64,000 bases of DNA, taken from positions 434,001 to 498,000 of the forward strand of contig NZ_VIAQ01000015.1 of NCBI RefSeq assembly GCF_006546655.1. Reading direction: 5' to 3'. Positions 47,897 through 49,022 of the stretch are shown piece by piece; within the stretch, counting starts at the first letter, position 1; every line of letters starts with the position of its first letter. Under the pieces are notes generated by a model. That model was not told the origin of the DNA, ran no database searches, and saw only the letters and a program-made list of their open reading frames with translations. Source of the stretch: Methanolobus vulcani. GTDB taxonomy: Archaea; Halobacteriota; Methanosarcinia; Methanosarcinales; Methanosarcinaceae. Position numbers and translations under genes: made by a program.

Positions 47897-48190
47897 TTAT
47901 TCCCTTCTTGTAGTGTTCAGGAGACAAATCAGTCAAGTTCAGATTATGTTGAAAGCAATTCCATTTGCCTTTTGGTATAATGTGATTCAACTTGACTTTA
48001 TATGGTTATTTTGAATATTATTGAATATTCTTATGTTCAATGCATTTGTTCATTTTTTATAAATCACTTATGGCCATATGTCACACTATAAACAACTCTA
48101 TATATTTGTGTTATTGAATCGTTCATCTTACTTTTTCCTGAATATGGGTACGGGTTTTATTAGCCATGATACGAACGTTATTTTTAAATA

Positions 48191-48225
48191 TCACAATTGT
48201 GTATTAGGGTCTATCACAATTGTGA
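48191..48225. promoter_or_regulatory. paired operator palindromes before the MoaD-like gene
   Basis: TCACAATTGTG (48191-48201) and TCACAATTGTGA (48214-48225) lie with centres 23 bases apart, just after a TATA element. A third copy lies at 49011-49022. Repetition of a rare palindrome around one regulator gene suggests it is that regulator's binding site. Confidence 0.65.
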
Positions 48226-48227
48226 CT

Positions 48228-48360
48228 TGGTATTATTACCAATAACCAGGTATTGGCCCGGCTAACATTCTCATGTAAAGTTATGTCGTCCCGGTTCGAA
48301 TCCGGGTCCTGGCTTGAGGGTTAACCTCAATTCCCCGCAGGAGTCTTCAGGCTCCTGCAG
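48228..48360 (+). ncRNA. structured leader RNA with a tRNA-like T-arm
   Basis: A series of stems: 48228-48243 TTGGTA/TACCAA; 48238-48255 CCAATA/TATTGG, which excludes the former; a tRNA-type T-arm CCCGG-TTCGAAT-CCGGG at 48290-48306 followed by TCCTGGC-T, the shape of a tRNA 3' end; TTGAGG/CCTCAA around 48314-48330; GCAGGAG/CTCCTGC at 48338-48359. No full cloverleaf can be built. It may be a riboswitch-like leader, a regulatory RNA or a tRNA fragment from an old integration. Confidence 0.4.
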
Positions 48361-48426
48361 AAAAACGTCTACTCCAAACTACCTCCACAAAAACCACCAT
48401 TTTTTATTTTTTCAAAAGGTAAAATC

Positions 48427-48621
48427 ATGAAAGTAATACTTCCAAACGGTGATACTCAGGAACTGGTTATGGGCTCGTTGACAGTAGAGGAATTACTGCA
48501 ACATTTTGATATAAGTCCGGGTGAGGTTCTGGTATCTAAGAACAAGCGCATTATCCCGGAAGATACAATTCTTGAAAACGATGATGATGTGCGAATAATG
48601 CAGGTTGTTTTCGGAGGCTGA
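48427..48621 (+). CDS. ThiS/MoaD-like ubiquitin-fold sulfur carrier
   Basis: 64 residues in the ThiS/MoaD/SAMP family. It has the small beta-grasp pattern (MKVILPNGDTQEL, VEELLQHFDIS, PEDTILENDDDVRIM) and ends in the diglycine VVFGG that is adenylated and loaded with sulfur by an E1-like enzyme. In archaea such proteins donate sulfur for molybdopterin, thiamine or tRNA thiolation, or tag proteins. A moaE relic 430 bases on suggests a molybdopterin origin; the small size also fits ThiS. No E1 gene is in the window. Confidence 0.8.
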   Translation: MKVILPNGDTQELVMGSLTVEELLQHFDISPGEVLVSKNKRIIPEDTILENDDDVRIMQVVFGG

Positions 48622-48656: not shown

Positions 48657-48971
48657 TTAGTGGTCATTAACACACTGCTGATCTTCTTCTCTAAGTTGTC
48701 TGCATATTCCGCATATCCTTGAAGCAAGGTCATCTACTTTGTTTTCTTTCATATCTGCTGCAAGCTTCCGGATGGATTCTTTGACATCATCCTCAAGCAC
48801 AATCCTGTAGCCTCTTTTTTTAGACAGGTATTGTGAAACTGCTGAGGGTGCCATATCAAGTTCTTTCGCTATTTCCTGCTGTGACAGTCCGCAATTGATA
48901 AGTTCTTCTGCAATGGCTGCTCTTATGGCAGGTAATACGTCCCAGACTATCATTTGACATGGTAATTTCAT
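48657..48971 (-). CDS. XRE-like HTH regulator with Cys motif
   Basis: 104 residues. A helix-turn-helix is clear at about 25-52 (AIAEELINCGLSQQEIAKEL then DMAPSAVSQYLSKKRG). The rest is helical, with a C-terminal CGIC plus one more Cys, which could sense metal or redox. The family is that of archaeal COG2522-type regulators. Its start lies 40 bases from a TCACAATTGTGA palindrome (49011-49022), and two more copies control the convergent MoaD-like gene, so I infer that it binds them and autoregulates. AAGGA precedes the ATG. Confidence 0.8.
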   Translation of the reverse strand: MKLPCQMIVWDVLPAIRAAIAEELINCGLSQQEIAKELDMAPSAVSQYLSKKRGYRIVLEDDVKESIRKLAADMKENKVDDLASRICGICRQLREEDQQCVNDH

Positions 48972-49010: not shown

Positions 49011-49022
49011 TCACAATTGTGA
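49011..49022. promoter_or_regulatory. third operator palindrome, upstream of the HTH regulator
   Basis: TCACAATTGTGA, identical to the copy at 48214-48225. It lies just upstream of the regulator's TATA-like element (minus strand, near 48995) and also before the moaE relic on the plus strand. Confidence 0.65.

Follow-up and report, generated by a model that had tools for sequence, protein, structure and literature searches.

The leader of a small sulfur-carrier gene in Methanolobus vulcani derives from a tRNA-Cys gene and belongs to a cysteine/sulfur regulon; its decoding half has been lost and its processing half kept. We consider it fairly probable, judging from sequence comparison, that this degenerate tRNA-Cys leader stands in a repressor-controlled sulfur operon and has been kept as a tRNA-processing signal. 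The locus lies in a 64,000-nt stretch of the genome (hereafter the window), to which all coordinates refer; features are on the forward strand unless stated otherwise.

The 140-nt leader (48226–48365) has a tRNA-Arg(CCG) gene and a 218-aa ORF, for which no Pfam match was obtained, on one side, and thiS followed by a convergent HTH gene on the other. Profile searches identified the product of thiS (48427–48621) as a ThiS/SAMP2-type sulfur carrier of 64 aa with GG at its C-terminal end; it scored 36 bits against Pfam ThiS, above the cut-off, and matched the NCBIfam models SAMP2 and thiS below cut-off. This gene had been called MoaD-like in an earlier note on the same DNA. Upstream of the leader, reading of the sequence revealed a TATA-box-like element, TTTTTAAATA (48181–48190), which is kept in the aligned clade leaders and would act as the leader promoter. 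Two operator-like palindromes were located by a genome-wide pattern search, TCACAATTGTGT at 48191–48202 and TCACAATTGTGA at 48214–48225, the latter near the expected transcription start; both are kept in six clade leaders. At the other end, a T-rich tract (48400–48413, 12/14 T) precedes the ribosome-binding region of thiS, ends 13 nt upstream of the start codon and is a candidate termination site. No repeats were found in a tandem-repeat scan.

As a whole, the leader folds at −49.4 kcal/mol (z −4.2) and is more stable than 200/200 dinucleotide shuffles. The motifs picked out in the earlier note are present: TTGGTA/TACCAA (hairpin 1, 48227–48242), CCAATA/TATTGG around the acceptor 5' strand, with which mutually exclusive stems exist, a perfect T-arm CCCGG-TTCGAAT-CCGGG (48290–48306), TCCTGGC-T as at a tRNA 3' end (48307–48314), and the strong stem GCAGGAG/CTCCTGC (hairpin 3, 48337–48358). 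Two further features are conserved in the clade: hairpin 2, TTGAGG/CCTCAA, immediately 3' of the tRNA-like end (48314–48330), and a tail, GAAAAACGT, 3' of hairpin 3 (48360–48368). The tRNA-like element itself, a degenerate tRNA-Cys, spans 48245–48314, with acceptor strands ACCAGGT/TCCTGGC and the discriminator T at 48314. A D-arm and an anticodon arm with a readable anticodon are absent, and in their place the window copy folds as a single central hairpin with a CGGC/GTCG core (48258–48289). With 5/7 acceptor pairs and 5/5 T pairs formed, the copy has the acceptor stem and T-arm of a canonical tRNA (RF00005); it does not score above the family cut-off and is not called by ARAGORN, in agreement with the claim that no complete tRNA can be folded at the leader. 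Among tRNA-Cys determinants, U73 is retained and GCA and G37 are lost. An Rfam scan up to E 10 returned chance matches only, the sole weak cis-regulatory one being opuB on the minus strand (18 bits, cut-off 75); a classical riboswitch, proposed before, finds no regulatory family near cut-off to back it, and no covariance model of a known riboswitch or T-box matched above its cut-off. Taken alone, the tRNA-like part has an ordinary folding energy (z −0.4 to −1.6 in seven genomes, not significant), and in genomes G063 and G046 single-sequence folding favours other pairing over the tRNA-like fold. Because its thermodynamics alone are unremarkable, the support for the tRNA-like part is comparative.

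A BLAST search of the leader over 111 genomes of the family, 27 of them Methanolobus, found it upstream of thiS orthologs within Methanolobus, where the syntenic order is tRNA-Arg, operator, leader, thiS. The thiS gene is present in 24/27 Methanolobus genomes; a 25th locus, in G061, keeps the complete leader and both palindromes in a genome with no thiS match (L006, L202), and its HTH gene lies about 14 kb from the leader after rearrangement. A tRNA-Arg gene adjoins most of the 25 loci. The place of the leader is occupied by an intact tRNA-Cys(GCA) in seven of them (G042, G044, G045, G051, G054, G055, G057), by a degenerate tRNA-Cys in 12 (the window genome G000, G046, G060, G061, G062, G063, G039, G043, G058, G059, G049 and, weakly, G041) and by no visible tRNA-like element in six (G040, G047, G050, G053, G056, G064), these calls resting on ARAGORN and manual reading. 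The tRNA-like 3' half recognized in the earlier note stands, and the 5' part is related too: it aligns with the 5' half of the relatives' tRNA-Cys. The element has a common origin with the tRNA-Cys genes at the same locus and, as judged from synteny, is a tRNA-Cys gene decayed in place. A structured, conserved leader of tRNA origin is supported.

On an rpoA1 tree of 26/27 genomes (G054 was left out, its rpoA1 being truncated), the intact, degenerate and absent states need at least six changes. Two genomes, G043 and G058 (L041, L044), fall within the window clade on this tree, yet carry leaders similar to the G042/G051 type and may have acquired the locus by horizontal transfer. Other tRNA-Cys copies were matched in 24/27 Methanolobus genomes. 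The assembly of G000 contains one further intact tRNA-Cys, whose acceptor and T stems differ from those of the leader; the difference rules out recent gene conversion from another tRNA-Cys as the source of T-arm conservation. A search of G000 with model R1 gave no further complete leader; apart from the leader itself, it matched just the ordinary tRNA-Cys, with a weak E-value.

To follow selection along the element, we counted columns in the window clade, which comprises six genomes (G000, G046, G060, G061, G062, G063); G039 was aligned and not counted, and G061 was omitted from the T-tract and T-tract-to-ATG segments. In acceptor plus T-arm, 26/28 columns are invariant (13/15 inner columns for the T-arm), part of this invariance being shared ancestry in an alignment of n = 6 related sequences. 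The corresponding figures are 16/40 for the D/anticodon middle (Fisher p 9e-6) and 9/33 for the 3' spacer before the T-tract (p 1e-7). As a neutral yardstick, 151/377 rpoA1 four-fold sites are invariant in the same six genomes, with a mean pairwise difference of 0.291; the tRNA middle, at 0.40 invariant and a mean pairwise difference of 0.291, evolves at this rate. Under the neutral rate, about 11 of the 28 arm columns would be expected to be invariant, and 26 or more has a binomial P of 7e-9. Changes in the T-loop are confined to 2/7 positions. On this comparative evidence, selection maintains U73 and both the acceptor stem and the T-arm in the window clade. An A–C mismatch at 1:72 is found in 6/6 clade members, and pair 7:66 is often broken. 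Pairing could be scored in 11/12 degenerate copies (G041 was not alignable): the acceptor stem pairs in every one, and all five scored outside the clade retain 5–6 of 7 acceptor pairs. The T-stem pairs poorly in G058 (2/5) and G059 (3/5). Since these two T-stems are poor and no tRNA-like element is visible at 6/25 loci, the tRNA-like fold is not needed everywhere.

Being nearly invariable, the acceptor stem and T-arm give no covariation signal. The six clade helices, counted on alignment A4, together have 94.2% of cells paired, a value reached by 1/500 shuffles, and four pairs with double changes, reached by 9/500. Among them, the central helix CGGC/GCCG has two double changes, three pairs changed one-sidedly and 91% of cells paired (six genomes). 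Hairpin 1 has two pairs with double changes and 78% of cells paired; it is broken in G061 and holds in 5/6 clade members. A wider alignment, A3, covered 16/19 loci with a tRNA or tRNA-like element, leaving out G041, G044 and G057, which are without the hairpins. Hairpin 3 (GCAGGAGTC/GGCTCCTGC; 16 species) has 95.1% of cells paired and four pairs with double changes, and 0/500 shuffles reach either value. Hairpin 2 is invariant at 16/18 columns in the clade, with 84% of cells paired in 16 genomes and no double change. Conservation of the stems in relatives, on which the earlier note had made its proposal depend, thus holds for the acceptor, the T-arm and the strong hairpin, and for the TTGGTA-type hairpin in five of the six clade members. 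Downstream, the number of T residues in the 14-nt tract is 9–12 in 15 thiS loci with hairpin 3 and 4–9 in the other 12. The motif AAAAACGT has 21 matches in the 27 thiS loci; it was rejected as a regulon-wide element, there being no enrichment near operators outside Methanolobus.

The convergent gene downstream of thiS encodes an HTH regulator of 104 aa (48657–48971, minus strand; profile search and ortholog alignment), with orthologs (E up to 1e-20) in 78/111 family genomes. Its cysteines at alignment columns Cys7, Cys89, Cys92 and Cys104 are invariant in 46/46 aligned orthologs, which suggests a metal, Fe-S or thiol sensor; from these four cysteines and the position of the gene, we infer that the protein binds the palindrome described below and senses cysteine or sulfide. 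Two palindromes of the form TCACAATTGTG(A) flank the expected leader start, and the same palindrome, TCACAATTGTGA, lies upstream of the HTH gene (49011–49022, minus strand). In the 2.9-Mb genome, matches to TCACAATTGTG are limited to the pair at the leader, the site upstream of the HTH gene and a single one within a coding frame of no related function; the exact full palindrome is confined to the leader and the region upstream of the HTH gene. With up to one mismatch allowed, there are 11 matches, compared with two for the control. Three belong to the thiS/HTH locus; of the other eight, one (G000:C19:47974-47985, L258) lies 60 nt upstream of a TusA-type gene, and several fall inside open frames and look like chance. 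The HTH protein probably represses through the TCACAATTGTGA sites, an operator role and an autoregulation to which position and conservation point.

The same association extends to other genera, from which a subset of 20 HTH ortholog loci was examined. The pattern TCACNNNNGTGA has 37 matches in 17/20 of these loci, against 0–5 for nine control patterns, and the palindrome is therefore common to the regulator and to sulfur genes across genera. Adjoining genes include, by NCBIfam, the cysteine desulfurase NifS, O-acetylhomoserine sulfhydrylase (MetY) and Thi4, and, by manual sequence reading, cysteine synthase (CysK), SepCysS and ThiF-like, MoaD-like and LarE-like genes. In one locus (L240:2381-2692, G079), the NifS frame adjoining the HTH gene seems truncated, at 103 aa. 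Genes for tRNA-Cys, eight in total, are found in 7/20 loci, and the order operator, tRNA-Cys, gene recurs with SepCysS or a SepCysS-like gene (L231, L232), Thi4 (L233, L234) and the sulfhydrylase (L240, L241). In G083 (L242:5134-5350), two operators are followed by a tRNA-Cys-like stretch without an ARAGORN call and then by O-acetylhomoserine sulfhydrylase; as far as its sequence goes, a leader tRNA-Cys has here decayed independently, outside Methanolobus. Within Methanolobus, locus L198 of G040 (G040:C6:283500-293000) has four same-strand units of tRNA-Cys plus ORF, one with SepCysS and three with B12-binding_2 (~124 aa); a palindrome lies upstream of three of the four, and a second HTH copy is found among them. 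A tRNA-Cys also lies directly upstream of a TusA-type gene at L200:2044-2467 and L120:1500-1930, intact in G040 and with a damaged T-stem in G056.

Several other readings of the leader were weighed against these data. That a tRNA 3' half was copied by an integrating element, as the earlier note had offered, is hardly conceivable. T-arm plus acceptor 3' strand is a usual attachment segment of such elements, and this is in its favour; the leader is however a single copy in genus-wide synteny, no identical intact tRNA was found elsewhere in the genome, the neighbouring ORFs that we checked include no integrase, the stems of the other tRNA-Cys differ, and the element is not an att relic because intact tRNA-Cys genes stand at exactly the same place in relatives. 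We likewise regard as very improbable a tRNA that still works, if unusually, with a different anticodon and a reduced D-arm. In its favour, most clade members have, by homology, a CTGTAAA-like anticodon loop that retains T33. Against it, the pairing of the central stem is different, the anticodon position is not constant (GTA, with GTG in G063), 1:72 is A–C, and neither ARAGORN nor Rfam gives a match. A plain decaying pseudogene, in which a redundant tRNA-Cys drifts and the remnant reflects shared ancestry only, appears quite unlikely. The other tRNA-Cys copies, common across the genus, the repeated decay or loss on the rpoA1 tree and the neutral rate of the middle part would all agree with it. 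Neutrality over the whole element is nevertheless not what we observe, the arms being far slower than the middle, and the near-invariant arm columns, the restricted T-loop changes, a new central helix with double changes and acceptor stems that pair in every scored degenerate copy speak against mere drift.

Another reading, somewhat unlikely in our estimate, is a regulatory tRNA mimic. The leader would either bind one of the tRNA-Cys pathway proteins (SepRS, SepCysS, CysRS or a thiolation enzyme) or alternate between two structures, hairpin 1 together with the acceptor stem and the CCAAT/ATTGG hairpin that excludes them; in this way, T-tract termination or thiS translation would follow the cysteine or sulfur state. 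The exclusive stems do exist, with CCAAT and ATTGG retained in 5/6 clade genomes, and hairpin 1 has double changes. The T-rich tract, which in the window lies 13 nt from the thiS start codon, is stronger in leaders with hairpin 3, G061 has kept the whole leader and both operators without thiS, and most of the operator-linked genes identified are sulfur or cysteine genes. On the other side, no covariation is seen in the CCAAT/ATTGG pairing, G061 has lost this pairing, and no Rfam regulatory family matches. Moreover, GCA and G37 are lost, and the accessible sections of PMC8762117 give GCA, U73 and m1G37 as determinants common to SepRS and CysRS; they also mention A73 tRNA-Cys in Methanolobus. 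The T-tract and the solitary leader of G061 keep the mimic alive, and an attenuator, which had been suggested before, is possible, with the T-rich tract lying upstream of thiS. The kept acceptor and T-arm alone do not tell processing from protein binding. Extended to the Methanosarcinaceae, a tentative and rather doubtful proposal is that a regulon-specific tRNA-Cys, switched by the cysteine-rich repressor, heads sulfur operons and repeatedly becomes a non-decoding regulatory leader or, as in G061, a stand-alone small RNA.

Our preferred reading remains a leader retained for tRNA processing. The tRNA-Cys element would head a transcript shared with the ThiS/SAMP2-type carrier, and the neighbouring cysteine-rich HTH protein probably represses this leader–thiS transcript via TCACAATTGTGA. 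From the arrangement of the locus, the ancestral unit would have supplied an extra tRNA-Cys together with a sulfur carrier, within the family-wide cysteine/sulfur regulon. As the comparison of genomes shows, the D-arm, the anticodon arm and the GCA anticodon have been lost in the window clade, and a new central hairpin fills the gap left by the two arms. Decoding of Cys codons by the element is not to be expected. The kept minihelix makes it most likely that the tRNA-like fold is still a cutting signal for RNase P and tRNase Z, whose cuts would trim the transcript and set the 5' end of the thiS mRNA. The T-rich tract could act as a terminator, in which case expression of thiS would require readthrough; the leader standing alone in G061 fits a unit that ends at the T-tract.

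The locus presents a tRNA gene caught moving to another job, its decoding half in neutral drift and its processing-enzyme half frozen; sister species, in which the tRNA gene is still intact at this position, provide a natural control. Through the HTH regulator and its putative operator, tRNA-Cys genes of methanogens are linked with those for cysteine desulfurase, sulfhydrylases, SepCysS and sulfur carriers. Candidate sulfur donors for tRNA-dependent cysteine synthesis are TusA and the ThiS/SAMP2-type protein. If tRNA-Cys has indeed been converted repeatedly to a regulatory leader, these genomes would hold a tRNA-to-riboregulator transition at several stages.

Association of a tRNA-Cys gene with SepCysS and sulfur genes was reported in the accessible sections of Mukai et al. 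2017 (PMC5424206). Our loci resemble that arrangement of tRNA-Cys with tRNA-dependent cysteine synthesis and sulfur genes, through SepCysS in G040 and the SepCysS-like ORF in L231/L232, and differ from the description in those sections in having an operator, an HTH regulator, a thiS partner and a degenerate tRNA. Our searches of open-licence papers turned up no description of the regulon or of its operator and HTH regulator, nor of the degenerate leader. In the bacterial metY-nusA and tRNA-tufB operons, a tRNA gene likewise heads a protein-coding transcript and is excised by tRNA processing; the tRNAs are functional there and degenerate here, and we know of no dedicated operator with a neighbouring regulator in those operons. 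The tRNA-like domain of tmRNA also has an acceptor stem and a T-arm but lacks a normal anticodon arm; the present element differs in being an archaeal leader, with no tag frame seen and no Rfam family match. A tRNA-like structure in a 5' leader is likewise known from the E. coli thrS operator, where the leader imitates the anticodon arm and regulation is exerted by the synthetase; in the Methanolobus leader, in contrast, the anticodon arm has been lost and the acceptor stem and T-arm have been kept.
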